From assembly GCF_032854445.1 (NCBI RefSeq), contig NC_088300.1, positions 10,540,001 to 10,604,000 of the forward strand: 64,000 nucleotides of DNA, given 5' to 3'. The notes under the pieces were generated by a model. It had not been told where the DNA came from and ran no database searches. It worked only from the letters and a program-made list of their open reading frames with translations. Every line of letters begins with the position of its first letter. Within the stretch, counting starts at the first letter, position 1. The position numbers were made by a program, and so were the translations under genes. Source of the stretch: Liolophura sinensis (lineage: Eukaryota; Mollusca; Polyplacophora; Chitonida; Chitonidae). Below are positions 21,401 to 60,796 of the stretch, piece by piece.

Positions 21401-24400
21401 TTTGTGGTCAGGTAAGTTAATGAAATGTTGTCATCAATCTTTATATTTACTCTGAAAGTCCTATATTGTCAATTTAGGTGTGTTGAAGCCAGGAGGTACA
21501 GTTGTGGAGGGCACTGCTGGAAATACTGGCATCGGATTGGCTCACATCTGCCTGGCACTGGGCTATAAATGTGTTATCTACATGCCAAATAACCAATCAA
21601 AGGTAACTGTACAAGTCATATATGTATGTGTGTTTATCTTGTTTGAAACACTGGTCTCACAATGATTCTTTGCGAGATGGGCTAAGGTTTTCAGAGTAAC
21701 AGCAGAGACCACTAGTCTGCTCTGTTTTCATTATTCTTGTTCAGACTCTTCTCTTTTTCTTGTCTTCATGTGCCCATGTTGCATTTTGCTATTGTCTGTA
21801 ATTACAGAGATGCTTATTGAAAACACTAGCTTTCAGTTAATACTTTTGAGGGATATGACATTTGAGCATTCATTCATTTTCATTTCCAGGAGAAGATAGA
21901 GGTTTTGGAGACGCTGGGTGCAGAAGTGCGACCAGTCCCGGTGGTTCCCTGGACTGATCCAGATAACTACAACCATCAGGCAGGTAACCCTAGTTTGTAC
22001 AATACACCTCACAGGATGGGTAATGACTGTTATAACTACAACTGCCAGGCAGGTAGCCCTAGTCTGTACAGTGCACATCACAGGATGGGTAATGACTGTT
22101 ATGACTACAACTGTCAGGGAAGTAGCTCTAGTTTGTACAATACACCTCACAGGAGAGGTAATGACTGTTATACCTACAAATGTCAGGCAGGTAGCCCTTG
22201 TCTGTACAGTACACCTCACATGATAGGTAATGATTGTCATAACTACAACTGTCAGGCAGGTAGCCCAAGTCTGTACAGTACACCTAACAGGATGGGTAAT
22301 GACTGTTATAACTACAACTGTCAGGCAGGTAGCCCTTGTCTGTACAGTACACCTCACAGGATGGGTAATGACTGTTATAACTACAACTGTCAGGCAGGTA
22401 GCCCTCGTCTGCACAGTACACCTCATTTGATAAGAAATAACTGTGTAACTACAACCATCAGGCAGGTAGCCCTTGTCTGTACAATGCACCTCACATGACA
22501 GGTAATGACGGTTATAACTACAACTGTCAGGTAGGTAGCCCTTGTCTGTACAGTGCACATCACAGGATGGGTAATGACTGTTATAACTACAAACATCAGG
22601 CAGGTAGCCCTAGTCTGTACAGTACACCTCACATGACAGGTCATGACTGTCATAACTACAACCATCAGGCAGGTAGCCCTTGTCTGTACAGTACACTTCA
22701 CATGATAGGTAATGACTATCATAACAACAACTGTCAGGCAGGTAGCCCTCGTCTGTACAATGTACCTCACATGACAGGTAATGGCTGCTATAACTACAAC
22801 TGTCAGGCAGGTAGCCCTTGTCTGTGCAATGTACATCACAGGAGGGGTATGACTGTTATAACTACAACTGTCAGACAGGTAGCCCTAGTCTGTACAATGC
22901 ACATCACAGGATGGGTAATGACTGTTATAACTACAACTGTCAGGCAGGTAGCCCTTGTCTGTGCAGTGCACATCACAGGATGGGTAATGACTGTTATAAC
23001 TACAACTGTCAGGCAGGTAGCCCTAGTTTGTACAGTACACCTTACATGATAGGTAGTGACTGTCATAACTACAACTGTCAGGCTGGTAGCCCAAGTCTGC
23101 ACAGTACACCTCACATGATAGGTCATGACTGTTATAACTACAACTGTCAGACAGGTAGCCCTAGTCTGTGCAATGTACATCACAGGAGGGGTAATGAATG
23201 TCATAACTACAGCTGTCAGGCAGGTAGCCATAGTCTGCACAGTACACCTCACATGATAGGTCATGACTGTTATAACTACAACTGTCAGGCAGGTAGCCCT
23301 AGTCTGTACAATGCACCTCACATGACAGGTAATGGCTGCTATAACTACAACTGTCAGGCAGGTAGCCCTTGTCTGTACAATGCACCTCACATGACAGGTA
23401 ATGACTGTTATAACTACAAGTGTCAGGCAGGTAGCCCTAGTCTGTGCAATGCACATCACAGGATGGGTAATGGCTGTCATAACTACAACTGTCAGGCAGG
23501 TAGCTCTAGTCTGTGCAATACACTTTACACCTGTCCATTCAGACAAATAAATGAAAACAATACCATTGCAGATTGAATTAAACATTTGTTTGCACAGTTT
23601 CATGTACCATGTCTAACTTGATACATGTGCATAGGGACTTAATTTCATGCATATTTTTGTAGGCTCAGCGTTTTGCTGACAGTATAGAGAATGCTGTCTG
23701 GACAAACCAGTTTGACAACACTGCAAACAAGCAAGCTCACCTTGAAACCACAGGCCCTGAGATATGGCAGCAAACAGGTACATATAAGCTAGGGTAATCA
23801 AGGTATGAAAATATGGCAGTGAGCAGGTGCAGGTAAACTAGGGTAATCAAGATATGGAGATATGGTAGCAAATAGGTACATGTAAGCTAGGGTAATGAAG
23901 ATATCGAGATATGGCAGTGAACAGGTACATGTGAGCTAGGGTAATGAAGATATCGAGATATGGCAGCAAACAGGTACATGTAAGCTAGGGTAATCAAGAT
24001 AAAAAGATATGACATTAAACGGGTATAATAGGATGTTAAGATATGGTAGCAGACAGATGAGCTAGATGTCAAGATATGGCAGCACACAGGTGAGCTAGAT
24101 ATCGAGATATGGCAGCAAACAGGTACATGTAAGCAAGGGTAATCAAGATACAAAGATATGACATTAAACAGGTATAATAGGGTAATGTAGATGTTAAGAT
24201 ATGGCAGCAGACAGATGAGCTAGATGTCGAGATATGGCAGCACACAGGTGAGCTAGATATTGAGATATGGCAGCAAACAAGTAAGCCAGGGTAAGCAACA
24301 TCTAGATATTGAGTAAGCTGGGTAATTTAGATGTTGAGGTATATCAGTAAAGAAGTAAGCTAGGGTAATCTAGATGTTGAGATGTCAGAGTAAACAGGTA

Positions 24401-27400
24401 AGCTAGGGTAAGCAACATCTAGATGTCGAGTAAGCTGGGTAATTTAGATGTCGAGGTATATCAGTAAAGAAGTAAGCTAGGGTAATCTAGATGTTGAGAT
24501 ATGAGAGCAAACAGTAAGCAAGGGTAGGCAACATCTAGATGTCGAGTAAGCTGGGTAATTTAGATGTCGAGGTATATCAGTAAACATGTAAGCTAGGGTA
24601 ATCTAGATGTTGAGATATGAGAGTAAACAGGTAAGCTAGGGTAAGCAACATCTAGATGTCGAGTAAGCTGGGTAATTTAGATGTCAAGGTATATCAGTAA
24701 ACATGTAAGCTAGGGTAATCTAGATGTTGAGATATGAGAGCAAACAATAAGCTATGGTAAGCAACATCTAGATGTCGAGTAAGCTGGTTAATTTAGATGT
24801 CAAGGTATATCAGTAAACATGTAAGCTAGGGTAATCTAGATGTGAGAGCAAACAGTAAGCTAGAGTAGGCTAGATGTCGACACATGGCAGCAAACAGGTA
24901 AGGTAGGTTAGGCTAGAAGTCAAGATATGGAAGCGAACAGGTTAGCTAGGGTAGGCTGGGTAATCTACAAGTTGAAATATAGAGGGAAACAGGTAAGGTA
25001 GGGTAAGGTAGGGTAAGCTAGATGTCGAGATATGGCACCAGACAGGTAAGCCAAGGTAAGCTAGTCCTTCAAAACCAGAAGTAAAAATTTGGCAATATGA
25101 AAGTTTTGGTATCTCTTTCGATTTGGCATTTGTGGGTGTAGTGCTAACACCATTCAAAAAGTTGAAGATATTGGCATATGCTACCTTTTGAATTGATATG
25201 TTCTGACTTTCATACTAAAGAGTGAAAATCCATGAACAGTTTTATTTAAAAATGAATTGATTGTAATACTTTCCTTGCTGAATGCTTTGGTATTATGGGT
25301 GTTCGTTTACCAAGATAAATCACCTAGGTAAGACATCCTGTGATTTTAGTGCAGCACAGAAACAGTATCAAAGGTGAAATACAGGAAGATTTTTAGATAA
25401 AATGTTTTTTATTTTGTTTTACTTCAGGGGGGAAAGTGGATGCTGTGGTGTTTTCTACAGGCACTGGTGGGACTTTGGCAGGTAAAAATGTTAAACCAAA
25501 GGCTAAGACTTAAGACCATCACTCTCCTGGCAGTGCGGTTTTGAGTGATACACTGTATACCACTGAGCATTGCCCCTGAATTTGTCACATGTTGACTTGG
25601 CTAATAACATGATGAGTGTTGTCGGGCACCTGCTTGCCTCTGTGTGGAGAAGGAGTCCTCTGGGGAGTGTTTCTCAAAAGTGTCTTTAACTTTATGATGG
25701 TGTACGGTATTTACGACGGACTAACTTTTTTTACTATGTCGGTTTCTCAAAGCACATCTTAAATCTCTCCAGCGAGCATAACTTGTACGACTTATCAGCA
25801 ACCTAGTTTTGGACAAGAACTGGAAATTTTCAATGAAAAAAAGGTAAAAAATGTACACGCACAAAAGAGAGGCAAAAACATAAGCTTATGCCTGGGAATA
25901 CTTGTCTAGGGAATTTTCTGTAGCGGGTTATTGAAACATGCAGAATGTTTAGACAGGTGTTTATTGCGGAGTCTGTGGGTCACATTTCCCAGCATATTTG
26001 CACATTTTTCATTGTTACAACTGACCTGCAACTCCTCAGTGTGGGCACAAAATTTATGACCTCTTGAAGGCGTAAATTTGTGTTGAGAAACAGTGATGTA
26101 AATTTTACGACTTGAGACTGGCCTAAATCTACGACCGTCCTAAGTCCTTTTTGAGAAACAGACCCCTGATCTGCTGGGATTTCTCCACTCATCAATCAAA
26201 CCGTTCGGGTCTACTGTAAATGTAATGTCTGTGAAACACCAGTATAAAACATGTCAAATAACAGAAAGATATGTCAGATGACTTCATCTTACATTATAGG
26301 AGCCATTTTCAAATTTCAAAAAGGTAACAATAACCAGTGGTTAATGATACTGTTACATTTACACAGGTGTAGGCACTTACCTGAAGGAGAAGAATCCTAA
26401 AGTACAGGTGTTCCTGGCAGATCCTGAGGTGAGGAATGGTTTATTTAAATGTTTATTGTGAGGGTGAAGTCTTATGAATGGTGTATCTGACAGTTGATTG
26501 TGAGATGAAGTCTTAGCAATGGTGTATCTGAAGGTTGACTCTGAGGTGAGGTCTTAGGAAAGATGTATCTTAAGTTTGATTGTGAAGTGAGGTCTTACGA
26601 ATGGTGTATCTGACAGTTAATTGTGAGGTGAAGTCTTAGCAATGGTGTATCTGAAGGTTGACTCTGAGGTGAGGTCTTAGGAAAGATGTATCTTAAGTTT
26701 GATTGTGAAGTGAGGTCTTATGAATGGTGTATCTGACAGTTGATTGTGAGGTGAAGTCTTAGCAATGGTTTATCTGAAGGTTGACTCTGAGGTGAGGTCT
26801 TAGGAAAGATGTATCTTAAGTTTGATTGTGAAGTGAGGTCTTAGGAATGGTGTATCTGACAGTTGATTGTGAGGTGAAGTCTTAGCAGTGGTGTATATGA
26901 AGGTTGATTCTGAGGTGAGGTCTTAGGAAAGATGTATCTTAAGTTTGATTGTGAAGTGAGATCTTAGGAATGGTGTATCTGACAGTTGATTGTGAGGTGA
27001 AGTCTTAGCAGTGGTGTATATGAAGGTTGATTCTGAGGTGAGGTCTTAGGAAAGATGTATCTTAAGTTTGATTGTGAAGTGAGGTCTTATGAATGGTGTA
27101 TCTGACAGTTGATTGTGAGGTGAAGTCTTAGCAATGGTGTATCTGAAGGTTGACTCTGAGGTGAGGTCTTAGGAAAGATGTATCTTAAGTTTGATTGTGA
27201 AGTGAGGTCTTATGAATGGTGTATCTGACAGTTGATTGTGAGGTGAAGTCTTAGCAATGGTGTATCTGAAGGTTGACTCTGAGGTGAGGTCTTAGGAAAG
27301 ATGTATCTTAAGTTTGATTGTGAAGTGAGGTCTTATGAATGGTGTATCTGACAGTTGATTGTGAGGTGAAGTCTTAGCAATGGTTTATCTGAAGGTTGAC

Positions 27401-30400
27401 TCTGAGGTGAGGTCTTAGGAAAGATGTATCTTAAGTTTGATTGTGAGGTGAGGTCTTAAGAATGGTGTATGTAAAGTTGATTGTGAAGTGAGATCTTAGG
27501 AATGCTGTATGTAAAGTTGATTGTGAAGTGAGATCTTAGGAATGGTGTATGTAAAGTTGATTGTGAAGTGAGATCTTAAGAATGGTGTATGTAAAGTTGA
27601 TTGTGAAGTGAGATCTTAAGAATGGTGTATGTAAAGTTGATTGTGAAGTGAGATCTTAGGAATGGTGTATGTAAAGTTGATTGTGAAGAGAGATCTTAGG
27701 AATGGTGTATGTAAAGTTGATTGTGAAGTGAGATCTTAGGAATGGTGTATGTAAAGTTGATTGTGAAGTGAGATCTTAAGAATGGTGTATGTAAAGTTGA
27801 TTGTGAAGTGGGATCTTAAGAATGGTGTATGTAAAGTTGATTGTGAAGTGAGATCTTAAGAATGGTGTATGTAAAGTTGATTGTGAAGTGAGATCTTAGG
27901 AATGGTGTATGTAAAGTTGATTGTGAAGTGAGATCTTAGGAATGGTGTATGTAAAGTTGATTGTGAAGTGAGATCTTAGGAATGGTGTATGTAAAGTTGA
28001 TTGTGAAGTGAGATCTTAGGAATGGTGTATGTAAAGTTTGATATCAGATTATCACTCCTATTACATATATTATAATCTCATGTTGGATTTTAATGTTTGG
28101 TGCCCTGTGCACAGGTATTGTTCTTCATACCTACAGACTAAAGGCGAATGATTAGACTTAGGACATAGTACAGTTGCTAATTCTAATTACTTTGAGGTTT
28201 GTTGGTACCTCGAGCTAGCTTATAAGTTATCCATAGTCTGTATGTTTTCTGTGTAAATTTTCAAGGAAAGATTCATTTGATTATTAAATTAAAATCACTA
28301 CATGTTTCCAATATATTTTCAACTATTCAGTTTTCTTATAGGAAAAAAAAAGACCAGGTACTATTTTTAGCTCGCCTGTATGAAGTCAGGTGAGGTATTG
28401 TGAGAAGTGGGGAAAGTGGTGGTGTCAGTGTTGGTGTCCAGTTAAGCTTTCTTTTTCTTTTTGCTCCCGTATGATGGGCTCTTATACATGGGTTGAAGCT
28501 TGTGCTTTTTCTTTTAGCCCCTGTGATTGTATAATGGGCTGTCATTCATTGACTGAAGGTTACGCCTTTTGGTTTAGCTCTATAGGCTATGGTAAACAGA
28601 CATAATCGGATAGAAGGTTAAGCTTTTTTTCTGTAACTGTTGTATATTGGGCTATCATACAGGGATTGAAAGTTAGGGTTTTTTGTTTTGTTCCCTAGTA
28701 TAAGGTAGGGTGTGTAAAGGCACATTCTCAGATGGCAGGTTAAGCTTTTTTTTTAGCTCCTATATAATGGCAATTTTTTTTCTACAAGGGGCCTGCTGAT
28801 GGAAGATTGGACTGTTTTATTGGTTTTAGTTTTAAAGGCTTTGTGAATGTTTTTTAATGATATTAATTGATAGACTTTCTATTCAAATATTTACCAGTTA
28901 AATAAACTTCAGTTTATTTTCTCTAGAAATTAAGCCTCCATTCAGGGCAACAATTTCTTGTATACAAGGTTTCTGTGACTTCATTGCTTATGAGGTTTAT
29001 GGACTTTGCCACTTTTACCATTTTTGTCACAAGACAAATTTCATGTAGGACTACAATTTTCATGCACATGTCTACCTACATGTAGGAGAACAAGAAGGGT
29101 ATTGGGTTCATCTGGCAATTTTAAAACTTTCCTGTTTTGTGGACACACATTCAGGTTGACTTCATTCTGTGAACAGGGGATTTCTAGAAGCCTTTCTTGT
29201 AGGACCACAGTTTCTTGTGCACTCACTTATCTAGATAAGCTTTTTGTCCCTCTAGCTACTTGACCAGATTTGTAGAGTAAGGATTTGCTTTGGTGCATAC
29301 CAGTTTATCTGGTATACACGGTATCTGTAGAAAGCTTCCTACATCTGTACCAGCACTAAGAGCCTATGACACTGGCTGATGCATGTGCCTTCCTGTGCTG
29401 TGACTGTGTCTAAGTAGGAAGGTCTGCCAGCAACCTGCTGGTTTCCGCCCACCATAATGCTGGCTGCCGTCATATAATTGAAATATTCTTGAGTATGGCG
29501 TAAAACACCAATCAAACAAATAAATAAATAAATAACATTGACTGTTATCAGCTGAGTATTTGCTCAGCCAATCAGAGGGCTGCAGTGGGCACCCTTAGTG
29601 CATGGATAGCCAATCATGGGAAGCGATTTGCCTATGGTCAAAGACCACTCTAATGAGTTGGTACTCAAAACACCCCACAGTGAAGTTTTTTTTTACTAGG
29701 ATAGCTCAACATTTGCTCACCCAGCTCACAATTTGCATATCAAAGATAACTGGCTCAATTTTATGCACAAACTCCAAAAAAATGCCCATGATGTCTTTAC
29801 CACCACAACACTTTACAACTTTTTACATCTTTATTTCTGATTCCATTGTCTAATTGACTTCTAATGCAGGTGAGCTAGAGGGATTCTTTGAATGCCTTGT
29901 TTGGTTTTCAGTATACTGTAAGTAATGCGCCACAATTGCGAGGGAAATAGTTAGAAATCTTTTTTACTGGGTGTGGTATCTAATTTTGTGTTTATGTTTA
30001 AATTTTCAGGGAAGTGTATTGTACAATTGGTTCACATCTGGCAAACTAGAGAGGTCGGAGGGCAGCTCAATTACAGAGGGCATAGGTCAAGGTCGGGTTA
30101 CCAAAAATTTGGAGGGATCACCAGTAGATGGCGCTCTTCTGATGAAAGACACAGCTTCAGTAGAAATGGTGAGAGTTATGTTCCAAATATATATCAAGTT
30201 TAATTTAACGGCTCATATGGAATTGATGAAGATAATTTTTAAACTTTCCTAATGTTCAAAATGCACCTAAATAAGAGTCTGCAAATACAAAAAATCAGGA
30301 TGCATGGAATACGTTTGAAAATTTCAAAATATGTCTATAGACCTGTATATTAATAAAAGTACCTTACATTTTTGTCATGTAAATAAATGGCCATAATCTA

Positions 30401-36806: not shown

Positions 36807-36812
36807 AATAAA
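36807..36812 (+). terminator. poly(A) signal of the synthase gene
   Basis: AATAAA about 195 bp after the stop codon, in AT-rich sequence. It is the first canonical signal after the stop. Confidence 0.6.
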
Positions 36813-38682: not shown

Positions 38683-41600
38683 TCATACATGCTTTTTATT
38701 CCTCTTTTTGTTTGGTTTTGTTTTGTTTTCTGAGGAGTGAGGCCTTTTCACTGGTTCTTTCTGGTGTATGTTGACTTTTGTTTCTCTCTGAGTGATGTGT
38801 TTGTCAGCTTTATGTTTTAGCACAGTTTTAGTTTTGACGGCCTCCATTTTTGCCCACAGTTCATCTTCATTGTCTGAGTCCCCTTCATCCATGACATCTA
38901 CTTGCTTTTCCTTCACATCGGCTTTGTTTTCATCTGTCATCGTCGTGACATCAGGATTCCACTTGGAAGCAAACAGCAAACAATTCAGACGAGACTTGAG
39001 ATAAATCTGTGGACAAAAAGAAAGAGTGGAAAGTAAATGGCCAAAATCTTGCAATCCGAACCTGTCACAAAATCTGTTAAAACTTATGTTACAATGTTTG
39101 TTAACAGTTAATAGACTTCAATCTGTTGTACAAAGATTTAAGTAAATCCTGACTTGTAACAAGGATTCACGTAAATCCTGACTTGTAACAAGGATTCACA
39201 ACTGCTATGACAAAAAGTCAACTGCTTAGGCTTCGTTCTGTCTCGGCATCTCACTACATAAACAACCCATGTTACAAGAGAGAATATCAAAAATTCAACC
39301 AACCAGCCAACTGACAGACAAAACCACCTAAATGTGTAAAGCTACTGTGTCACAGCTGAAAACAGTAGATATCAGGTCATGATGAAATGTGAAACTGACA
39401 GATCACCTGGGGCAAATGACCTAAAGTTTGGCCCTGGGACTTGGAAAGTGTATCCCAGAAATTAGTAAGTTAGTTGTGGTTGTTACTGAGTGGGCGCAAG
39501 GGGAAAGCATTGAGGGTGGTCAGGGGACAATACTGACAGTTCAAGAATGTAGCAAACAAGTTCACACTTCAATGAGCAGTTAGTCTATGTTCCTACCACC
39601 AACAGTTCATGTTTTCCTCAGTTTAATTTATAATTATTTTAGTGCTTGCCCTTCGCGTCAGGTCGATTGTTTTATTATCGTTATTTTGTGTTAAATGCGA
39701 ATTTGGGAGAAAATCTTTGCAGATTAAGCGTGTCTACCAAGTGCCTTCATGCAAATGGAGTGTCATGTAAAATATACGTTTTTAAACTGCAGGGCCCTCT
39801 GTATACAAAGCTGTAGCAGAATTTAACATACCACGAATTAATACTTGCAAACTCGGCCAACCACCAGACAAGATGAAGATGTCAAACTACAATCAAAGCG
39901 ACATCTACACACATACGTTTGCACTGTGGCAGTTAAACATTTGTTGTTCATACTGGTGTAATTTGAATGACTGTCAATTCCTGCCCATATTTGGTAAACA
40001 TGAATACTTAATTTACTGAATACTTAATTTACTGAATACTTAATTTACTGAATACTTAATTCAGTCCCCTCGGATGAAATTGTAGTCATACATACTACAT
40101 TGTTCTGCATGTAGATACAAGCCACTTACAATCACACAAATCGAAATTTCCATGTGTTTTCATCTATTGATCATATGATTTTTGACGGCAAAATGCTAAA
40201 CAATAATCTTATTTGTTGCTGGCGACACATAAATCACGCCTGGGCAAAACTGTATACAGGAAATCATAAAAAATGCATTTTACTTTGATATAAAGCCAAT
40301 GATGATATTGTGCGAACTCCTAATGTGATAGCAACTCAAACTGCAAATCCTGTCTCCTGATATGCTGGACTTGCACACAGTGCTACTGAAAAGGGGTAAA
40401 AGTAAGGCATGGTAGTTTTCGGAAACCTCGTGTGAAATATGTTTTCTCTGTTAAATGGGGGCCTCCGTGGCTCAGTCGGTTAAAGCGCTAGCGCAGCGTA
40501 ATGACCCAGGAGTCTCTCACCAATGCGGTCGCTGTGAGTTCAAGTCCAGCTCATGCTGGCGGCCGTACGTGAGAAGGTCTGTCAGCAACCTGCGGATGGT
40601 CGTGGGTTTCCCCCAGGCTCTGCCCGGTTTCCACCCACCATAATGCTGGCCGCTGTCGTATAAGTGAAATATTCTTGAGTATGGCATAAAACACCAATCA
40701 AAAAAAAAAAAAAATCTCTGTTAAATGGGAGGTTTCCAATATAAAAATGTGGGAAAAGAAACTCTTCTGCATTAGGATGACAGTTCTGATTGTAAAGAAA
40801 CAAAATCTGTGTGTAACCTGACATACTGGACACGGGAAGCTGATGACAGATATTTCTTGGTGAAAATTCATTTTTAGCTGAAATATGTTTGTAAACACAT
40901 TCGCTGCATAATGAGGGCTCTCAGCAGACAACCGTTCACCAAGTAAGTGTGAGGTGACTTCCAGGTAGACCTAACCCGAATAATCGTTTCGTCTGCAGTG
41001 TACATTGTGCATGTACAGTCCTGGTTTGGCTTGGTGGAACTTTGAGACAGTGTTCAGAATTCAAAGGTTTGTAATAGACATTGCCTGTATTAATACTTTC
41101 CTTGATTTCATTCATGGGTGTATTTAGAGAGGTACATGTAAGCCAACAAGTCAGGAGACCTGCACACCTCACTGTCTGTGACTTGACCCCATGAGGATTA
41201 GCAGCCAGACCTGACAAGTGCCATGCAAGGTAATGAAACGGACAGGGGGCTAATCACTCTCTTCTGTCATCTTGCTACCAACTCAAATAGCGTGAAACTG
41301 AATGACAGTAATTCGTGCGAAACTTTAGGTCATTTACCATACCTTATGTAAGAGGTGTCCAGAATCAATATGGTGGATGCGGAGAAATCTGTCCAGGCCA
41401 CAGGAAGCCACCAAAGGCATTGTGGGATGGCACTGCAGGCTTCGGATACCGCCCGCAAAGCCCTTGTAACACTGGACCATTTGACCTGTGGGATAAAGAA
41501 ACAGAAAGATACTTAAAGATAATTAATTACAGAGCATTATATATTTCTGTGTGTACACAAATAAAGGCTAAACTGAAGCAATACTGTATAATTGCTGCTA

Positions 41601-47600: not shown

Positions 47601-49075
47601 TGAGTATGGCGTACAAAAACTGATCAAATAAATAAATCAAATTATTTCCATGTCTGAGACCTGTTTTATATTCTAGATTAGTTGTGCAGCAATGCCATCT
47701 GACTTTCAGACCGGCACTCAATGTCCAATCAACAAGCCTAACATGCGCCTAAAATGTAACAACGCTGCGAACCAAGCAGGAGAAACAACCATTTTGCATT
47801 TACCTTACGTAGGTATCAGAGATTTCTAGTTGGAAAGATGTAGTGTTCATTCGAGTGGCACAGCCACAAGAGTTACAATGTGAAACATGATCAAATGTAT
47901 AGTAGGATATGTCTTTGCACAGAGTTGTATTTTAGTCTGGTACTGTGCCTAAAATTGTTTTTCAGTGGCTGTGTAGAAGAGTCTGGGATAAAAAGAAAAC
48001 AGCTTGAAAAGCGTGAGATAATGCAAAAATGTGAGCGTGTTGGTGGGATATATCGTTGTGCTGTTTGTGGTAAGTGCTCAAAAAGAATGTATCACTACCA
48101 GTGACAGTAAAAGTTGTGGATGCAAAAATAGATTTTATTGGAAGAAATCGCACACTTGCAACTACAACACATCATAAAATGTTAGTGTAACTGTTGTGAC
48201 TATGCCACAGTTAGCCCTACATTTTTATAAGTATCTGAATATCTTTAGTCAGAATTTTCTGACTAGAACTTGCAGCAGATATTGTGATAATCCTGACAGC
48301 ATGCTGCAGTTCTAGTCAGAAATCGCTCAATTTAAAACGATTAAGTTTCAATGTGTAAAACGTGAGTGATGAAAGCAGTCCGCGCGAACACGATGGCACA
48401 TACCAGTGAAAGCGGGAATGAAGAAGAGATGTTGAAGACATTGTTTATGAAAATATTGTTCATCAAAATATTATTCAAAATGAATTTACGAGGCAAAAAT
48501 ATAACTGCTGACGAGGAAAGAATGATTGTAAGTGCTTGGATGTAGGTGAGACAAGAAGACAAGATGGGTAATTTAGCCTTAGCAATGTTGTTTTCATTGA
48601 AAACTCTTTAATTTTTTTTTAATGGAGAAACTTCCGACTAGAACTGCAGCATGCCGTCACGCTCATCACAATATCTGCTGGAAATTCTAGTCAGAAAATT
48701 CGGACAGGGATAGGCCTATATATTGTGACCACAGGATAGAGAATAAACGTAGTAAAGAGCTGTTTAAAATGCCACGATGTTGAAATATCAATCGTGCCAG
48801 TATTATTGCAAGAAAGTGTTTTTTTTAGAGTGGCGATACAGGGTGACTTTAACGCTCAGCAGACAGGATCTGGACCTTCCATAACCTTACTCTCTTGCCA
48901 CCAACATCACCACCATTACATAATTATAGGTAAATACGAGAAAACTTAGGCAACAAGATATCGGCACAATAAATATAGTCGTAACTTAGGAAATGCGTAA
49001 ATAATCAACTTTTTCACCTTTTAACAAGCCTGTTTCTGATCCGACGTACACATTGTGAAAACACGTGTTAGCCAT
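38683..49075 (-). CDS. WDR74: WDR74 (yeast Nsa1) WD40 ribosome-assembly protein, 10 exons
   Basis: Minus-strand exons in order: 49030-49075, 46913-47019, 46544-46665, 45749-45812, 45076-45219, 43094-43195, 42409-42509, 42028-42083, 41343-41485, 38683-39006. Phases join without a break, giving about 402 aa (human 385). Family blocks: start MANTCFHNVYVGSETG; ATGGKENDFKLWDL (exon 5); VRNDWLNLRAPVW and TCTGYHQ (exon 6); VRIYDPSSPQRRP and FDEYPLSAMT (exon 7); VIVGNTQGKMG (exon 8); LVASCGLDRFLRIH (exon 9); IYLKSRLNCLL, DELWAKMEA and a Lys/Arg-rich tail (exon 10). WDR74 is a seven-bladed WD40 nucleolar protein that associates with pre-60S particles and the AAA ATPase NVL; the basic tail would suit nucleolar targeting. 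Exon 1 needs a GC donor (cag|gcttgt). Four SINE copies lie in its introns. Confidence 0.94.
40002..40066 (+). repeat. 16-bp tandem repeat, 4 copies
   Basis: 'gaatacttaatttact' repeated exactly in intron 9 of WDR74. Confidence 0.93.
40460..40714 (+). mobile_element. full-length tRNA-derived SINE with 15-bp target-site duplication
   Basis: tRNA-like head with A box TGGCTCAGTCGG and B box GAGTTCAAGTCC, then the family body and a poly-A tail. The direct repeat TCTCTGTTAAATGGG flanks it (40445-40459 and 40715-40729). Little diverged, so a young insertion. It lies antisense in intron 9 of WDR74. Confidence 0.95.
43380..43430 (+). mobile_element. SINE 3' end fragment
   Basis: 'attcttgagcatggagtaaa' then 'acaccaatcaaataaataaa'. 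Body and head are absent. It lies in intron 5 of WDR74. Confidence 0.75.
43539..44705. mobile_element. candidate hAT-like DNA element, about 1.17 kb, no transposase seen
   Basis: Left end CAGGGTTAGATCCAGAAA and the reverse complement of the right end, CAGGGTTGGATACAGGG, form an imperfect terminal inverted repeat of CAGGG type. Next to it both ends have runs like 'ttgattttttag'. The interior is AT-rich without a long frame. I could not find a convincing 8-bp target-site duplication, so the family call is tentative. Confidence 0.5.
45295..45517 (+). mobile_element. full-length tRNA-derived SINE with 9-bp target-site duplication
   Basis: Head 'gcctctgtggttgaggtggt', block 'aggagtctctcaccaatgcg', B-box-like 'taagttcaagccc', then the body and an AAATAAAT tail. 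The direct repeat ATTATGTGA lies before (45281-45289) and after (45518-45526). It lies in intron 4 of WDR74. Confidence 0.88.
45880..46040 (-). mobile_element. SINE fragment (3' half), minus strand
   Basis: An (ATTT)n tract leads into 'gattggtgttctacaccgta', then 'ccagcattatggtgggagga' and 'aggttgctggcagaccttcc'. The head is missing. It lies in intron 3 of WDR74. Confidence 0.88.
47389..47641 (+). mobile_element. full-length tRNA-derived SINE with 13-bp target-site duplication
   Basis: Head 'gcctcggtggctcagttggt', B box 'gagttcaagtcc', body slightly shortened near 47580, and an AAATAAAT tail. The direct repeat TTATTTCCATGTC flanks it at 47376-47388 and 47642-47654. It lies in intron 1 of WDR74. 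Confidence 0.93.
48248..48704. mobile_element. MITE-like inverted-repeat element, about 457 bp
   Basis: The arms 48248-48325 and 48631-48704 are near-perfect reverse complements over about 75 bp (TTTTCTGACTAGAA, CAGCAGATATTGTGAT, GCATGCTGCAGTTCTAGTC). Each arm also contains its own smaller inverted repeat around TTCTAGTCAGAA. No transposase. It lies in intron 1 of WDR74. Confidence 0.75.
49023..49032 (-). other. probable GC splice donor of WDR74 exon 1
   Basis: On the minus strand exon 1 ends GAA ACA G at 49030 and is followed by gcttgt. Exon 2 starts GA GTA in the matching phase and restores the family sequence GSETG-V. No GT at or near this position gives the right phase, so a GC-AG intron, an assembly error or a rare allele is implied. 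Confidence 0.6.
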
Positions 49076-49530: not shown

Positions 49531-50182
49531 CCCCAGGTGGCTACTTCAACTCCTCTCTTTATATTGGGCTGGCAGAGTAGCAATGCTAAACCATACACTG
49601 ATTCACAACATGTCGGATAAGTCCTTTCCAAACAATGCCTGTAGCCGAAAAGTGATGTCAACTTTGGCTCTTACCTCTCAGATCACTCGCACACGAAACA
49701 TCACAGGTATATTCCATGCTGTAATGGCACACCAGCCCAGTATTCACGACACTGAACGTCTCACAAATATTTCACTTTGTAATAACACACCAAACTCAAC
49801 TTCTCCTTACAGTCAACACTAAAGCAGCAACCTTTTGTCTTTGCCAGAGTTATGGATCTTGAAAAATTTATCATGGATGGCACCTGCGCGTTAAACTTGA
49901 AAAGATGAGCCTAGTGGTCGCCTTGTATAGAAATGATCTGCCGTGTTGTGAATACAGGGCTGGTGTACCATTACCTCATGGAAGATACCTGTGATGTTTC
50001 GTGTGTGAGCGATCTGAGAGGTAAGAGCCAAAGCTGACATCACTTTTGGACTGCCACTATTGTTTGGAAAGGACTTATTGGACATGGCGTGAATCAGTGT
50101 ATGGTTTAACATTGGTTCCCCCTGTTGCTACAATACTCCACCAGCCCAATTAAAGAGGGGAACTGAAGTACCTACCTGGGGA
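49531..50182. mobile_element. fold-back element with arms of about 230 bp
   Basis: Left arm 49531-49755 and right arm 49943-50182 are reverse complements: shared blocks include 'aaaccatacactgattcac', 'aagtcctttccaaacaat', 'tttggctcttacctctcaga' and 'cacacgaaacatcacaggta'. The middle (about 190 bp) is unpaired and non-coding. The sequence could form a large hairpin about 450 bp upstream of WDR74. Confidence 0.8.
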
Positions 50183-51045: not shown

Positions 51046-52149
51046 GCCTCAGTGTTACCACCGGTTGTCTGTTTCCATCAGTGATGAAAATATATTGCTA
51101 AGAGTCCATTTTATGTTCAGACTGTGATTTTGCACGGCTTCAGATTAAATGATGACAAATACATATATAATTGTCTGTACACGTTGTAATATACCTGTCT
51201 TCAATATTAAACACAACCAATGCACATTGGTCTGTAAACTGCAATGTTATTTATAATTAACTGACACATGTAATATAGACCAGGCACATTAACTCGTTTC
51301 ATAAGCACAATAATTATGCTCCTTTTTTTGATCAGGCTGAAGGATAATCTCTGGGAACATATGTGTTTCATTGAACACTTTATCTGTATTGACAAGACGT
51401 ACCTTGTCAACACCCATCAAGGATATACATGTATGTGCATTTTGTATCACTGTGTATTCATTTAATGTCCACATTTATATGTATACTGCACACACATAGG
51501 CTACTGTACAGGTATGTACATGTAGTATTAGCACTATATGTACATGTGCGTGTGTATACCTCATCTACTATCTTGATCTAAGCCTTCTTGCAATCACCTA
51601 TATTGTATACATGACTGGATGTTTAATAACTGAATACAAATAGTTAATTACATGTAAGCATAGTGTCACTTAGTATTGATCTAAATTAAATACCTAGTTT
51701 CTACATGAGGTATGATATTTTACAAATTATCAACATTGTGGAAAAATTGCTGGACATATATCATGTGACCCAGATTTTAGTCTTGGTAATGATGTATTTA
51801 TACCTGCCTTTGTGTGACTTTGGTACTAGGTGGATGTGTAATTAACATTTTGACGTGTGGCTCTTGGACATCTATCAAAAGCTCACCTGGGTTTGAATGG
51901 GGATAATTTGTGCTGGAAGCAGTAACCTTGTGCTACTCTTGGAAATTTTCCTCTTGTTATGGGGCATTTGTTGATTTAGTACAGGTCTTCAGCACTGGAG
52001 GCTATAGTTAGAGTACATATTCACCTAGCTTTTCTGGTAAGCCTTACTCTGAGATTGCAAAGTGGCTGTCATGGAAGTCTACACTGGTAGCTGTTGAAGT
52101 CTGTCAGTTGTTAACAAGTAAACGATCTCATATTCTGATAACAGGTAAG

Positions 52150-52305
52150 ATTGTATTTATGTATTTATTTATTTGATTGGTGTTTACACCATACTCAAGA
52201 ATATTTCATTTATGCGACGGCAGCCAGCATTATTGTGGGAGGATACCAGGCAGAGCCCGGGGGAAACCCACGACCATCCGCAGGTTGCTGCAGACCTTGT
52301 CATGC
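52150..52305 (-). mobile_element. SINE fragment (3' half), minus strand
   Basis: A T-rich tail, 'tatttgattggtgtttacac', 'gcgacggcagccagcattat' and 'cacgaccatccgcaggttgc' match the family. The head is missing. Confidence 0.85.
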
Positions 52306-54644
52306 ATAGCCGGAGAAGAACATAGATAGTAGAGATGGTAGGGCTTTTATTAGCTATCTGTGTAGGTGGTAGGACTTTTAATAGCTATCTGTGTATATGG
52401 TAGGACTTTACATGTAACAGCTACTTGTATAGGCAGAGATTTTATTAGCTACCTGAATAGATGATAGGCAGGGGGTTAGCCAGAAATGTGAAAAAGGGTG
52501 TCCAAACATCCCTTTTTAAGGCCATTTTTTATAGCAGGGTGTCTAGATTTCATTTCTCCTATCTCTCCGATGTTGAAAGTGCTGAAAACAGGGTGTCCAA
52601 ATTGCAAAAGTTTTCAATTTTACTCGCCCAAGGATTGGTAGCTAGCTAGCACAATGATATCAGCTACCTGTATGAGAGTTACATTCTTAACAGCAGAGTA
52701 AAATGTGAGTCAAGTATAAATTGCTGTGCTATCCCACCTGGTTTAGTTTCCTAATTTTTATATATTTTATTTTATCTTCTTTATTTTCAACAGGATCGGT
52801 AGGTCAGTATGTCAGGCATTGTCATACATGTATCCAAAATAATGGTACATTTTTGTTGTCAGTAAGCATGACTGGTAGATTTTATATTAATATTGTTGAG
52901 ACCTGTATTAAATGAACTTTAAATTAAAGTGAAACTACAAGATTAGTTTCTTTGTAAGTTCAATATCAATGATGTAGGTGTTGTAATATCAGCTGAAATT
53001 TGCTTTCCATACTCTTGCTTTATGCCGTAATAAAAGTATAACAGGTTATTGATCTACTTTCATGTAAATGTAAATCAAAAGTTAGTAAATATCGGGGTTG
53101 GCAGGCAGCAGGCAGACTGGTAGACTCACAGAACGCGACTGCGTCACCCAGATAAGCTGATACACTAAATACTTGCACATGTTTGTAAAAGTCAAGGAGA
53201 TATATATATATATCTATACCACATATATAAAGGAATGGTTAATTTATTTATTATTTTGATTAATAAGGTAATTTCCCTTGCTCAACGATATTTGATTTCA
53301 GTATAAATATTATAGACAGGTGTAAGATTTCAACTCAACCCCTCATGATGGGTACCTGCCAGACAACCCGAACTAGAGCCCTGCATGGTTACATGTACAC
53401 CAGAGTCATAGCTGAACTAGTGCTCTCTACATTTGAGCATCATTGCTTTCGCCAAAAATATCTGTCAGCAAGGAAATTCTGGCATATTGAATGTTTCTAG
53501 TGCTAAAGGTTATTAACACAAGGTTTTGTTTCTTTAATATGTGTGTACTTGTACATAATGTATTTCTGGAGATGGATATCATTCTAAAGAGCAAGAGCTA
53601 TAACAAGACTTCATCAGTAGAATTAAGACATATTACCAATATTCTATTTCAACACAACAATAAACAGATTTTCACCCCATAGTTTCACTGACCAGTGTAC
53701 AAGACAGGGGTATACCTGTACAAGTCCTGTGATACGTCTACTAGCTGAAGTTATACTTATAATACCTTTGTAGCCGAATGTCTTCCTGTTTTTGAGTGTA
53801 TAGTCCCACAGAAACTGACATGAATCAGTCAGTAGCCAGTCAGGGCAGCTGCCCTGCACCTTAACGCCTTCATGTGGGCTTTGATGATGTACAGGGAAGG
53901 GCACAGGGTTTAAAAGTAGTTATAATTTACATACATTACATGTACATGTAAGAAATTATTACAAAATCCATTGCTCAACATTTGTGGCCAAATCGAGTCT
54001 GGAGGATTGGCTTGTGGTAGTTTTGTACACATATATTCATTTGCCTGTAAGATGCAGTACATGTGCAGTGAAGTTGTCTCAATAGATGTTGTAGTGTAGA
54101 TATATTTATCTGCTTTTGGACATTGTAGAAGACATTGGTATGTTTAATTTTTTTGATTTAAAACCTTAGCTTGTTAGCAGCCTACATTGAGAATTTTACT
54201 CTAGTTTAATTTAGGAAGAAATTTGTTCCAACTATTTGCTTTTAAAGAATCAATGGATGTCATAATGTGTGCATTTTATGAATTTGTGGGTTTTAATTTG
54301 CCAGAAGGTAGGGTTTAGAAAGATATACCATAGTTTTCTTACAACAGTACATGATTGAAATTATCATCTATATTCTGTCAGATCTGTCAGACAAAACTGC
54401 ACTGTGCCTATAGATAAATTTTTATATGTGGTGATTAAAGATGTGAATAAAAATGTCTGTAATTTTGTTTGGGGGTATGACTGACTACCCAAGCATATTT
54501 TTCTTCAGAAAGTGTGTGTTGAAATTCTGAAAGTTTTGCTTTAGGTTATCATGATTTTTGTATTCATCTATTATTATGCTGAACTGATAATTTGTTTATT
54601 TAATTTTCTGCTCTAGTGAAGATTTATTTATGGCCTATTTAAAT

Positions 54645-54838
54645 CTTCAATTAGCACTACAAGGATGTAAAGATGGATGTTTATACTGTCACTTAACCTG
54701 GCCGTCTTGTATTCTGATTATGACATACATCCTTGTAGCACTACAAGGATGTAAAGACGGATGTTTATTGACAACAGGAGCTTCATACTGTCACTTAACC
54801 TGGCCGTCTTATTTTCTGATTATGACATACATCCTTTT
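54645..54838 (+). repeat. about 100-bp direct duplication upstream of KLHDC3
   Basis: 'cactacaaggatgtaaagan' and 'tactgtcacttaacctggcc' to 'ctgattatgacatacatcct' occur twice. The second copy has 18 bp extra ('tgacaacaggagctt..'). Each copy begins AAGGATGTA and ends TACATCCTT, a short inverted repeat. Confidence 0.85.
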
Positions 54839-54962
54839 CTGGTGGATTGGTTAATTACTGAGTGACTACCTATGAAGGATGTCTTACATTGTTCAATGAT
54901 TTCCTGTTCCTCAGACTTGGTCCCCCCTGATTGGTTGTTTTAACCAGACCCATCTTACAGAG

Positions 54963-57900
54963 ATGCAGAGGTGGACAATACACCTGGAGGGTGGGCCCAG
55001 ACGTGTCAATCATGCTGCAGTTGCTATTGGTGACCGTATATACTCATTCGGGGGCTACTGTACAGGGGAGGATTTTGACACTACCCGGCCAATGGATGTC
55101 CATGTCCTTGACACAGGTCAGAGACCAAAGGTCACATCACATTTATTTTTACAGTTAAAAGCATGACATGATTTCTTTTCCAAGATGACAATGCTATATT
55201 CAGCAATTTATTTTAGTTGCAACATTTTATTCTGTGAATATTTAAAATCATGACATGATTATTTTTTGTTTGATGATAAGTCCACAAAAAGAAACCAGCA
55301 TCACTAACCAGTAAACGTTTCACGGAAATGTATATGTAAAATACATACATGTGCTTTGTAAGAAAAATAGACATGAATATGAAATGAAATCTCTGATTTT
55401 AAATGGATTGTTTGTTAGTTTATCTTTGCTTAATTGGTGTGTAATGAGTGAAATCTGTTTCTTGTACCATTAACTGTTAGTTGTAATTTCCAATTATTTG
55501 TATTTTGTCCTTCCCAGTATCGTTGCGCTGGTCCAAAGTTATGCCTCCTCCAAACCCAGATTACTTAAAGTTCGTCCCATACCAGAGATATGGTCATACA
55601 GCAGTGGCAGTGGGGGAGTGTGCGTACATCTGGGGAGGTCGCAATGACAACAAGGGTGCATGCAAAATACTCTTCTCCTTCAACACAGGTATAATGTGTG
55701 TCCTGGAAGTCTGATTATTTATCTAATTGGTGTTTAATGCCATACCCAAGAATATTTCACCTAAATCATGCTGTTAAGGTTTACTAATGGCGGAAAATGG
55801 ACAGGTAAAGGTAAACCACAGCCAATCACCAGGTACCTAGGAAATCTCCTTACTTACTTCAAGCCAACTCGAACAAGGTGATGTCCTGGCGAAAGCACTG
55901 TTAGCTGGCTTTTTGTCTGTGTTATCACCGACACTCAGCAAACTGTGACGTGATTGGTTTGTCAGTAAATTCGTCTTCATGCCTCATTTTACCATGCCAA
56001 GGGAGACAACAGTCTATTTTCTGAAATTCACACATTTAGGAGAATGGAAATAGAAAAATGATGTGCTTTTCAGAGGAAAAATAATTTCTAACTAATGCGT
56101 ATACTTTGAAAGTGTGAAAGATTTTTCAAAACTCATGTCTTCATGTCATAAATGATCACATTCCATAATTAGGCAGTTTGAGAAGAACATTTTTGAATGG
56201 AGATCTAAACTTGCCTCAGTGGAGAGCACCTTGTAGATCATAACTGTGTATGCAGAAGTTGAAGAATTTATTGTTTTCTGGGCCTTCCTATTACTGTTTC
56301 ATGCAGTCTTACACGGAGGTTGCTGGAGATGCGTGTAACCTACATGTATGTGACATATGTATTTAATATGCTACATGTACACGTATGGACAAGTTTGCGA
56401 TTGCAGTTTGGTCGGTGCTTTGGTTTTTTCTGGTTTACTCTACCCATTATATATTGACTTGTATTGCATAATAAGTAAATAATTCATGGATGTGAGTCAG
56501 AATGTGTCTTTAAGCATCAAACCAAACTAAGTTATCTGTGTGTAAATGGATGTGTGTGTGGCCAGAGTCAACTCTTGGCACATGATGTGAATGCTGAGAC
56601 ATCTATGCGCATTTCTGTTGCAGTGACCAATAGCTGGTCTCGCCCTGCTGTGACAGGCGACATCCCTGGGGCCAGGGATGGTCACTCAGCCTGTGTTATC
56701 AATGGGAAGATGTTTATATTTGGAGGATATGAGGAGGAGGTCAGTGTTAGGGCAGATAAAGGGTAGAATAGCTTATTGTCTCCAGGGCACAATCTCCCAC
56801 CTTAATGCTGGCCGTTGTCAAAATATTTAAATATTTTTGAACAGAATGTTGAAATTGTAAATGCTGTGACGTCACACAGTTATGAAATTGTAAATACTCT
56901 GATGTCACACAGTTTTGAAAATATACATACTGTGACATCACATAGTTTGGAAATTGTAGTTATGAAATTGTAAATGCTGTGACGTCACACAGTTATGAAA
57001 TTGTAAATACTCTGACGTCACACAGTTTTGAAATTATAAATACTGTGACATCACATAGTTTTGAAATTGTAAAAGCTGTGAAGTCACACCGTTTTGAAAT
57101 TGTAAATTGTGTTATGTCACACGGTTTTGAAATTGTGAATGCTGAGAGGTCTGACAGTTTTGAAATTGTAAATGCTGTGACGTTACATTTTTGAAATTAT
57201 AAATACAGTCACACAGTTTTGAAATTGTAAATGCTTTGACAGATTTGAAATTGTCAATGCAGTGTTGTCAGATAGTTTTGAAATGGTAAATGCAGTGACG
57301 TCACAAATTTTTAAAATTGTGAATGCTGTGACATCACACAGTTTTGAAATTGTAAATGCTGTTATGCACTTTTTAAATTATAGTTTCTGTCATGCAGTTT
57401 TGAAATAGTAAATGCAGTACTTGCACCTGTATTTACATAATATGTGGGATAATAGTAATGTGTGTTTTCTGTGTTTTCTCTACAGCTTAGTGCCAGAAAC
57501 TTTCAGCTACATTTTGACCTACATTTGGTCAGTAAACCAGTGATATTTAATCTCAGTATTTTGTCAGTAAAGTGTATGTCACATTTGGCATTTAAGCACC
57601 TTGTTACAATTTAAAAGAAATAACTACATGAAATTATCTTGCTGTTTTCAGATTGACAGGTTCACAAATGATGTGCACATGTTGGATTTCTCCACAATGA
57701 ATTGGGTGTACATAAACCGGAAGATGCTGAAGGTGGGCAGTGTTAGGTTACACACATTTGTGAACATGTCACGTTAATTACACATTCAGATGTACAGACA
57801 GACGAACAGGAGGATGGTGAAGGCAGGAAATGTTAGGTGTACACATCTGTGAACGTGTCCCATTAATTACACATTCAGATGTACAGACAGACGAACAGGA

Positions 57901-60796
57901 GGATGGTGAAGGCAGGAAATGTTAGGTATACACATCTGTGAACATGTCCCATTAATTACACATTCAGATGTACAGACAGACGAACAGGAGGATGGTGAAG
58001 GCAGGAAATGTTAGGTATACACATCTGTGAACATGTCCCATTAGTTACACATTCAGATGTACAGACAGACAATGAGCCCTGTTAGAAACATATGTTACTA
58101 GCTGTGGCTTGCTGAAGATTGTTTAAAATGCAGGTATTTTGCGTCATACTGTTGCTATTCCAGTAGATGTGGACAGTAATAACAGTTTAACCTATTGTAG
58201 AGGTTCTATCGGTACTTCAAAATCAGTGTGAACTTCAGCCTGGAAGGCTAAAAATAGTTTTGATCAGTAAATTTCATGTACATTTATACATGTACTGTAC
58301 TTCTCTCTACCTGGTGTACTAACATACACTTGTGTTCGGTAAAAACATTCTGAATGCAAAAATCAGAACTTCAGTTATTCATACAGTAGATCATTCATAC
58401 ATTGATGATTATTTTTTAACTAATCGCTCTTTATATGATTGCTATACAAATGGGTGAATAGTTTGTAAAAAAAATTTTGTGAAGTTATGTTAACTAGGAT
58501 ATGTTATAAAATTTCACATATTTTTTCACCTGGAAATTTTGGGTGATTTACTGTATATGCCTTGTAAAAATACAGGAATGTAGGAACCTTGGTTTTGTTG
58601 ATGCGTGAAGCATTTAATGGTAGCAATAATATGGAACACTGAAGGGAAGTAACTCATGAGTGGTTTGTTTCTGTTTCTATAGGGTGAGCCACCAAGAAGC
58701 CGGGACTTCCACACAGCTACCCCCATTGGTGACATCATGTACATATTTGGCGGGAGAAGCGATGAGGGAGGGCCTATTTTTACCAATAATGAGATGTATT
58801 TAAATTTATTGCATGCATTTGACACATCAACATTCACCTGGACAAAGCCTTCTAACAGCACAATCAGCCCTGTTGGACGGAGGAGCCATTCATCTTGTGA
58901 GTGTAAATCATTCCTGAGATCTTTAAATACCATAGACTGACTGACAGGTGTATATAATGGCCAGATGTTGTAATAGTCATTCCTGAAATCATTAAGTATC
59001 ATAGACTGGCTTACAGGTGTATATAATGGCCAGATGTTGTAATAGTCATTCCTGAAATCATTAAGTATCATAGACTGGCTTACAGGTGTATATAATGGCC
59101 AGATGTTGTAATAGTCATTCCTGAAATCATTAAGTTTCATAGACTGACTTACAGGTGTATATAATGGCCAGATGTTGTAATAGTCATTCCTGAAATCATT
59201 AAGTATCATAGACTGACTTACAGGTGTATATAATGGCCAGATGTTGTAATAGTCATTCCTGAGATCATTAAGTATCATAGACTGACTTACAGGTGTATAT
59301 AATGGCCAGATGTTGTAATAGTCATGCCTGAGATCATTAAGTATCATAGACTGGCTTACAAGTGTACATAATGGCCAGATGTTGTAATAGTCATTCCTGA
59401 AATCATTAAGTATCATAGACTGGCTTACAAGTGTATATAATGGCCAGATGTTGTAATAGTCATGCCTGAGATCATTAAGTATCATAGACTGGCTTACAAG
59501 TGTACATAATGGCCAGATGTTGTAATAGTCATTCCTGAAATCATTAAATTTCATAGACTGACTTACAAGTGTACATAATGGCCAGATGTTGTAATAGTCA
59601 TTCCTGAGATCATTAAGTTTCATAGACTGACTTACAGGTGTATATAATGGCCAGATGTTGTAATAGTCATTCCTGAAATCATTAAGTATCATAGACTGAC
59701 TTACAGGTGTATATAATGGCCAGATGTTGTAATAGTCATTCCTGAGATCATTAAGTTTCATAGACTGGCTTACAGGTATATAATATATATTCTATATATG
59801 GTCAGATGTACAGGTCAGATGTAATGGTCAGATGTACAATAACACCTGAAGTCTTTAAGCGTCATACACAAACTTTTTTCCTTTCAGTTGTACATAATGG
59901 TCAGATGTATATATTCGGGGGTTACAATGGTCTCCGTAACACACATTATAAAGATATCCACAGATATGACCCAGGTAAGTAAAGTCTTTCCAGTTTTGTT
60001 GTTTCATGTTCTACTGACAAAACCAGGTGTACAGGTAGCTGATCTGTGCTGGAAAGCTTCATGCCTTGATTTATTTGACTCTTCTTCTTACATACATGTA
60101 CATGCGTGTGATTGCAAGTTTATCAAGAAGATTTAATTCATTTATTTATTTGATTGGTGTTTTATTCCGTAGTCAAGAATATTTCACTTATATGACGGCG
60201 GCCAGCATTATGGTGGGAGGAAACCTGGCAGTGCCCGGTGGAAACCCACAACCTTTCACAGGTTGCTGGCAGACAAGAAGATTTAAGAATTGATTTTAAA
60301 ATGTAGATGTCCAGTTGTATGTGATGATGCTCATGCCAGCATTGACCTTGAGCAGGCATCATTATCCAGCATGCATAGAGCAGCAGTACATGTATGTGCC
60401 CATGCACACTAGATGTCTCCACTATATACAATGTATCAGGGACAGTAAATTGTTGGGCCAGCTATGTAAGCATTGTAGTGTTCAAAAAACCTGATGACTA
60501 AGCATTGGTAGTGATAGGAAGCTGTGCCATTGGTCCCTTACGAAGAAGAGGTGATTTATGTCATGCCTGGAAATGCAGCCTGTCTGTGTTGAAAACACAG
60601 ATCTCCTGAAAAGATCTGTCAGTCAGTGTGGATGCTGAGAAAACAGAACCGAGGAAACAACTGTGATATTCCCTGGTTTCTTTCCAGTTGAGAAAGTGTG
60701 GTCGGTTGTCAAGGTGAAGGGCTCTGGTCCGTGTGCTCGCAGGAGGCAGTGCTGTTGCGTTATCAAGTCCCGAGTGTTCCTGTTTGGAGGAACAAG
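54963..60796 (+). CDS. KLHDC3: KLHDC3 kelch-repeat protein, 7 exons, 3' end outside the window
   Basis: Exons: 54963-55116, 55518-55688, 56624-56739, 57652-57732, 58683-58896, 59888-59974, 60688-60796; all phases fit, about 310 codons. The start MQRWTIHLEGGPRRVNHAAV is near-identical to what I recall of human KLHDC3. Six kelch blades are marked by double glycines: SFGGYC, IWGGRN, IFGGYE, IFGGRS, IFGGYN and LFGGTR, with conserved GARDGHSAC (exon 3), GRRSHSS (exon 5) and RRRQCCC (exon 7). The protein is the substrate receptor of a CUL2-elongin ubiquitin ligase that recognises C-terminal glycine degrons. Exon 7 ends in phase 2 at a good gtatgt donor. The last 70 or so residues of the family, including the C-terminal part, do not appear before 64000. 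'cttacag|ag' immediately before the ATG suggests the coding start lies at the head of an exon following a non-coding one. Confidence 0.95.
55712..55845 (-). mobile_element. old SINE-like fragment of the second subfamily
   Basis: 'tttatctaattggtgtttaa' and 'ccatacccaagaatatttca' resemble the family tail; the following 'ggcggaaaatggacaggtaa' block differs from the main body but resembles the copy at 17452. It lies in intron 2 of KLHDC3. Confidence 0.5.
56850..57415 (+). repeat. 33-34-bp minisatellite with CRE-like octamers, about 14 copies
   Basis: Unit 'tgaaattgtaaatgctgtga' plus 'cgtcacacagttt', degenerate, in intron 3 of KLHDC3. Four units hold a perfect TGACGTCA palindrome (56867, 56980, 57013, 57296); others carry one-base variants such as TGACATCA and TGATGTCA. 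Confidence 0.9.
57720..58065 (+). repeat. 89-bp tandem repeat built from the KLHDC3 exon 4 donor junction
   Basis: The real exon end, 'aaccggaagatgctgaag', with 'gtgggcagtgttaggt', is the first unit. It recurs as 'aacaggaggatggtgaag' + 'gcaggaaatgttaggt' at 57814, 57903 and 57992, exactly 89 bp apart. The copied sites read 'aag|gcagga', so the GT of the true donor is GC in the copies. Confidence 0.92.
58890..59775 (+). repeat. 69-bp minisatellite built from the KLHDC3 exon 6 acceptor junction, about 13 copies
   Basis: Unit 'cattcctgaaatcattaagt' + 'atcatagactgacttacag' + 'gtgtatataatggccagatg' + 'ttgtaatagt'. It aligns end to end with the true acceptor region at 59845-59910: 'cctgaagtctttaagcgtca', then '..ctttcag', then exon 6 'ttgtacataatggtcagatg'. 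Every unit keeps a 'cttacag|gtgta' decoy acceptor. The 23-codon period leaves a 411-codon chance frame on the minus strand. Confidence 0.94.
60136..60276 (-). mobile_element. SINE fragment (3' half), minus strand
   Basis: 'tttatttgattggtgtttta', 'cttatatgacggcggccagc', 'attatggtgggaggaaacct' and 'acaggttgctggcagac' match the family. It lies in intron 6 of KLHDC3. Confidence 0.88.

Follow-up and report, generated by a model that had tools for sequence, protein, structure and literature searches.

What gives rise to intron minisatellites that begin as copies of the exon edges beside them? The first-pass annotation of this chiton (Liolophura sinensis) locus had claimed that arrays of this kind were born at five junctions in two genes and probably at one more in a third. 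We analyzed the arrays in the window (the whole stretch of 64,000 nucleotides under analysis) and in a sample of other regions of the same genome, as represented by one assembly that had been purged of haplotypic duplications.

Genes and exon-edge arrays in the window

The gene models were built by placing exons from splice signals and reading frame, and were checked against Pfam and PDB; Pfam was the sole protein check of the C19orf47-like model. The genes and the exons that concern us here are as follows.

Plus strand: C19orf47-like gene, with SAM_4 and DUF5577 (Pfam)
Plus strand: cysteine synthase gene, with PALP (Pfam, E 2.7e-73); top PDB chains 5jis and 5i7w (E 1.2e-104)
Plus strand: KLHDC3 gene; top PDB chain 9d1i (Kelch domain-containing protein 3, E 7.5e-122)
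9966..10108, plus strand: final C19orf47-like coding exon found, ending in TGA (stop codon 10106-10108)
19416: further cysteine synthase exon
21890..21979, plus strand: cysteine synthase exon 6 (frame, homologue alignment with NY in common), source of the 69-bp array
23663..23777, plus strand: cysteine synthase exon 7 (frame; EIW..T common to the bacterial homologue)
26367..26428, plus strand: cysteine synthase exon 9 (frame, homologue alignment)
57652..57732, plus strand: KLHDC3 exon 4 (frame, splice signals, PDB homologue)
59888..59974, plus strand: KLHDC3 exon 6, adjoining the acceptor array (NG and YIFGGYN common to human KLHDC3)

Synthase exon 6 ends in CAG followed by a GC donor (CAG/GCAGGT, 21977-21985). 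We assigned a GC-AG intron to this junction because the frame is kept only there, whereas the GT four bases on shifts the frame. An in-frame segment of 42 bp (57486-57527), bearing both an acceptor and a donor signal, lies within a KLHDC3 intron; it has no counterpart in the alignment with human KLHDC3 and may be an extra exon. This candidate was excluded from our exon counts, although it is still in the donor-strength listing. The minus strand carries a WD40-like exon at 41341-41486, presumably WDR74-like, with a Pfam E value of 2.6e-4, which is weaker than the cut-off. A local two-copy duplication (54652-54836) was found 0.1-0.3 kb ahead of the KLHDC3 start.

The arrays at exon edges were located as follows.

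21963..23523, plus strand: 69-bp array, 22.7 copies; copy 1 is the final 17 bp of synthase exon 6 plus the donor
23759..25064, plus strand: 49-bp-based array with higher-order 117/233-bp forms; copy 1 is the final 19 bp of synthase exon 7 plus the donor
26407..28042, plus strand: 123-bp (3 x 41) array; TRF start 26451, gapped alignment reaching 22 bp into synthase exon 9
57715..58070, plus strand: 89-bp array, 4 copies; copy 1 is the final 18 bp of KLHDC3 exon 4 plus the donor
58908..59782, plus strand: 69-bp KLHDC3 array, 12.7 copies, beginning 11 bp past donor 58896 and occupying most of the intron
59845..59908, plus strand: outermost copy of the KLHDC3 69-bp unit, with the authentic acceptor and 21 bp of the exon starting at 59888
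10094..10430, plus strand: 53-bp array; TRF start 10119, gapped alignment reaching 15 bp into the C19orf47-like reading frame

The edges of these six arrays are five splice junctions (four donors and one acceptor) and one reading-frame end, in three genes. The periods were 69, 49, 123, 89, and 69 bp at the splice junctions and 53 bp at the C19orf47-like edge; the unit lengths of 53, 69, 89, and 123 bp given by the first-pass annotation thus agree with ours, but its 48 should be 49. Within the introns of the C19orf47-like, synthase, and KLHDC3 models, arrays made up 16%, 55%, and 36% of the bases, respectively. The earlier suggestion that the arrays extend introns is supported.

Alignment of arrays with exon edges

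Our main test scored 18 arrays (period at least 20 and length at least 100 bp, smaller tandem repeats being excluded) against 56 exon edges, or 1008 pairs, using 70-bp segments and cheap long gaps; the null for each array consisted of 2757 positions in the window that were clear of arrays and exon edges. The six named cases took ranks 1-6, and every one exceeded all 2757 null positions. The z values were 28.9, 26.6, and 12.4 for synthase donors 21979, 23777, and 26428, respectively, 18.9 for KLHDC3 donor 57732, 12.2 for KLHDC3 acceptor 59888, and 16.3 for the C19orf47-like coding end 10108. In all six, the alignment continued across both sides of the exon edge. Donor 58896, 11 bp ahead of the KLHDC3 69-bp array, also exceeded the null with that array (z 11.0), as did an unrelated pair, array 56849 and acceptor 20906, whose z of 4.4 indicates the chance level of the test.

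In another test (40-bp segments, costly gaps; 1044 pairs), four of the six cases took ranks 1-4, while 10108 came sixth (p 0.0007), below an unrelated pair, and 26428 gave p 0.0075; the first copy at each of these two edges has a small deletion. This scoring left 26428 doubtful and was set aside, and gap-tolerant alignment settled that case. With 30-bp segments, z was at least 8 at three of the five junctions, 3.8 at 57732, and 3.5 at 26428. The 40-bp and 30-bp tests thus clearly separate three or four cases, 26428 not among them. A pseudo-junction control (z of at least 6 in 3/50 junctions versus 2/400 points, and of at least 4 in 3/50 versus 7/400) was left out of account, since masking had been applied to its control points near arrays. 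Alignment therefore bears out the claim that the arrays at five junctions in two genes are tandem copies of the exon edge plus its splice site. The sixth case stood as an exon-edge copy; however, edge 10108 is a reading-frame end and not a proven splice junction.

Origin of the units

The exonic parts of the arrays encode residues common to homologues (NY, EIW..T, and ADP in the synthase; NG and YIFGGYN in KLHDC3). Since these residues are shared with distant homologues, the exonic parts are old, and copying went from exon to array. At 57715-57732, the part of KLHDC3 overlapped by the 89-bp array, the chiton protein has three residues more than the human protein near the exon end, which makes the direction less sure at 57732.

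Among 306 unit comparisons the highest score was 15.0, compared with 14.5 for the highest shuffle, and it belonged to a pair made up of one junction and one non-junction array. When 401 bases of the synthase 69-bp array were searched against the chiton's own genome, the 6 matches obtained all fell within that array (very common words were skipped and one candidate region was scored), and a search of Rfam returned 0 matches. We saw no point in support of a single mobile repeat inserting at splice sites; the lack of a unit family, the match of every unit to its own exon, and the presence of the synthase unit at one locus only in the own-genome search make this reading all but untenable. The first-pass annotation was right that the units are unlike one another and are not one mobile repeat.

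Repeats of other kinds also occur in the window. Two long inverted repeats (49581-50114 and 48248-48705), with arms of 172 nt (88%) and 90 nt (86%), are possibly fold-back elements. A dispersed SINE-like repeat with a 44-bp core is present in 9 places with at most 3 mismatches (e.g., 7229-7272 and 29480-29523), and we take it to resemble the MetaSINE of molluscs.

Array placement compared with chance

Ten arrays sit in introns of the three genes. When each array was collapsed to one unit, the ancestral introns measured 129-2112 bp, and random placement of founders in them gave an expectation of 0.8-1.5 junction-spanning arrays of 10. By alignment, 5/10 arrays span a junction (P for 5 or more, 0.0002-0.003); by TRF limits alone, the count was 3/10 (P 0.03-0.14). 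Founders placed across the whole window gave an expectation of 0.54 of 18 arrays (P 0.0001). Because the window was chosen for its pattern, making these tests post hoc, a sample outside it was needed.

The sample was defined by exons in the same genome matching the kinesin profile PF00225 (132 matches) and the Cpn60_TCP1 profile PF00118 (50 matches). It consisted of 42 regions (274,738 bp) covering 156/182 profile matches, and TRF found 67 arrays in it, amounting to 16.7% of the sequence. By TRF limits, 9/67 arrays spanned an exon edge (6 donors and 3 acceptors). Those in L009, L027, L030, L035, L039, L041, and L046 had 10-93 exonic bp, and those in L033 and L034 had 6 and 7 bp. The idea of a constant exonic overlap of 17-21 bp was rejected on this range of 6 to 93 bp.

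With the cut-off matched on both sides, the 67 arrays gave 9 cases against 4.6 expected at 5 or more exonic bp (P 0.034), 8 against 4.2 at 7 bp (P 0.049), and 7 against 3.5 at 10 bp (P 0.052). Use of the longest TRF periods, which favours chance, gave an expectation of 4.9 and a P of 0.044 for 9. When only the 46 arrays lying between matched exons were considered, the counts were 4-6 observed and 1.6-3.5 expected (P 0.02-0.21).

The nine junctions were assigned by eye from frame and splice signals. Some exon-match ends differ from the true exon ends, and exons beyond the two domains were uncounted; these errors act in opposite directions. Sixteen arrays lay within 60 bp of an exon match: the nine counted and seven excluded (two in L007, one in L021, two in L033, and one each in L038 and L044), of which all except the L033 array 1359-1434 were judged by eye. 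In an automatic test, 15/268 array-edge pairs exceeded every edge of other loci. Among these 15 are pairs in L021, L038, and L007 whose exon match runs past the end of the exon or whose array simply adjoins it, as well as one unexplained pair in L007 separated by 332 bp.

Two sample arrays deserve description. The kinesin junction array in L041 contains, at 7809-7931, a longer copy of the exon, recognized as a translated stretch near the profile match; it appears to record duplications of differing extent at one junction. The array at 2711-3531 of L046, in a CCT gene, has a unit that is mostly exon plus a short intron stretch. Around this junction 99/100 bases match the unit consensus, and the array may therefore be young.

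The pattern recurs outside the window in the same genome. Junction overlap thus exceeded random placement in both the window and the sample; however, the sample excess is about two-fold, mild, weakly supported, and not firmly shown.

AG/GT preference and intron gain

The first-pass annotation had suggested a local duplication process favouring AG/GT. Among the window arrays outside the five splice junctions (the 53-bp array included), 1/13 contained AGGT against 2.15 expected, and among sample arrays away from junctions (periods above 120 excluded) the figures were 7/51 and 8.6. Since AGGT is not enriched away from junctions, the preference is unsupported; junction arrays carry AGGT because junctions do.

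The arrays might alternatively record intron gain through tandem duplication of an AGGT segment, a model published for other genes. The Rogers model, potato RdRp, and ATP2A1 belong here, and they share with the chiton arrays local tandem duplication involving splice signals (PMC4974935). In 5/5 splice-junction arrays of the window, however, one junction only matches the unit, which supplies one of the two splice sites; the opposite site is unrelated and lies outside the array, 11-1967 bp away. None of the five junction arrays (0 of 5) lies in an intron with both splice sites from the duplicated unit. We consider intron gain by this route very improbable.

Fate of the splice-site copies

The earlier suggestion of selection for spare splice sites would have the copies maintained as spare or regulated sites, with the synthase 69-bp array possibly contributing in-frame repeats to the protein. 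Donor strengths were calculated with an approximate donor matrix. By this matrix, the sites that equalled or outscored the authentic donor numbered 30, 42, and 2 in synthase introns 21980-23662, 23778-25427, and 26429-30009, respectively, and 0 and 1 in KLHDC3 introns 57733-58682 and 58897-59887. The sequence CAGGCAGGT is retained in 18/23 units of one array, where the copies are putative donors. In the synthase 69-bp array, conservation of the junction columns was 0.973 compared with an average of 0.896, and 4/60 windows were as high. The array is also open in the exon's frame for its first seven copies (21980-22443; 23-residue repeats), and splicing from a donor further along would lengthen the protein by such repeats.

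The other three arrays tested showed no clear preference at the site (54/81, 27/115, and 21/60 windows as high); the test left out the 49-bp array, and the last five copies of the 123-bp array were poorly phased. The copies in the 89-bp array have GC at the position where the authentic KLHDC3 donor has GT, and the copies in the KLHDC3 acceptor array are without 8 bp of the pyrimidine tract, the outermost copy (59845..59908) having 8 bp missing from the array consensus. By the same donor matrix, the non-junction array 33586 has 28 donor-like sites per kb compared with 11-46 per kb in junction arrays, so that some non-junction arrays are equally dense in such sites. These features argue against selection as a general cause, and we regard it as improbable. 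The human IFI6 (G1P3, 6-16) minisatellite has a donor in each repeat, and several of these donors are reported to be in use. The donor copies in the chiton arrays are putative ones.

Probable amplification of chance founders

The arrays are best explained, with a probability of about 0.7, as boundary minisatellites of the mirage kind, in which founders that fell across exon edges by chance were tolerated and amplified, no process targeted to splice sites being needed. Intron minisatellites are abundant in the stretches read and would often be born by local tandem duplication, and some founding duplications, as the alignments show, happened to span an exon edge. Because the outermost splice site would remain next to the exon, the mRNA could stay normal and the duplication could be tolerated. 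Slippage or unequal exchange may then have multiplied the intronic copies, lengthening the intron. In favour of this reading, six of the six named arrays align over their own exon edge, and the pattern recurs in 9/67 sample arrays. The 5/10 arrays found by alignment against 0.8-1.5 expected in the window, together with sample P values of 0.03-0.05, leave pure chance somewhat strained. Chance placement accounts for a large part of the pattern, though perhaps not for the whole of it, and a mild junction excess remains unexplained.

That excess is what would be expected if tandem duplication were favoured at exon-intron junctions through splicing, transcription, or the exon edges, rather than by AGGT as such. 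Counts above the founder null in both window and sample, and the involvement of donors (4 in the window, 6 in the sample) as well as acceptors (1 and 3), point in this direction. However, the window is post hoc and gives only 3/10 arrays by TRF limits (P 0.03-0.14), the sample shows roughly twice the expected number (with the 67 arrays, P 0.03-0.05; with the 46 between matched exons, P 0.02-0.21), and AGGT is not in excess elsewhere. We therefore judge such a preference unlikely and retain the amplification of chance founders as the preferred reading. A broader speculation, doubtful but worth stating, is that chiton exon edges, and perhaps likewise those of lancelets, could be hot spots of minisatellite birth, at which some process coupled to splicing or transcription generates junction-spanning duplications at least twice as often as chance, repeatedly lengthening introns and making in-frame protein repeats available where the unit is open and a multiple of three, as in the 69-bp synthase array.

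Relation to lancelet mirages and significance

Mirages were reportedly first described by Canestro in 2002. Two later sources describe them as minisatellite-like tandem duplications of exon-intron boundaries in lancelet Adh3, troponin C, globins, and PGBD5; the unit differs by locus, 5' or 3' boundaries are involved, many copies keep AG/GT, and splicing is apparently left undisturbed (PMC3087553; PMC3902484). The chiton units similarly hold an exon end plus a splice site (at five window junctions and in 9/67 sample arrays), vary in sequence and length by locus, and affect both 5' and 3' boundaries. They differ in that the host is a mollusc and not a cephalochordate. Copy number is 4 to 23 in the chiton window, compared with the 3 and 6 units reported for one lancelet globin gene. 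In lancelets the repeats prompted a model of how new intron positions arise, whereas the chiton arrays lengthen existing introns. We found no report of boundary minisatellites in a mollusc in the accessible parts of the open-licence literature.

The chiton arrays belong to the known mirage type, described in lancelets, and place it in another phylum. Boundary minisatellites are thereby known from a mollusc as well as from lancelets, and in this one genome they occur in about ten genes. This suggests that such arrays arose convergently or are a general side product of high minisatellite turnover. An assembled, annotated genome allows direct counting of whether duplications prefer exon edges, and the same genome may serve to ask how the spliceosome finds the correct site when tens of nearly identical ones are present.
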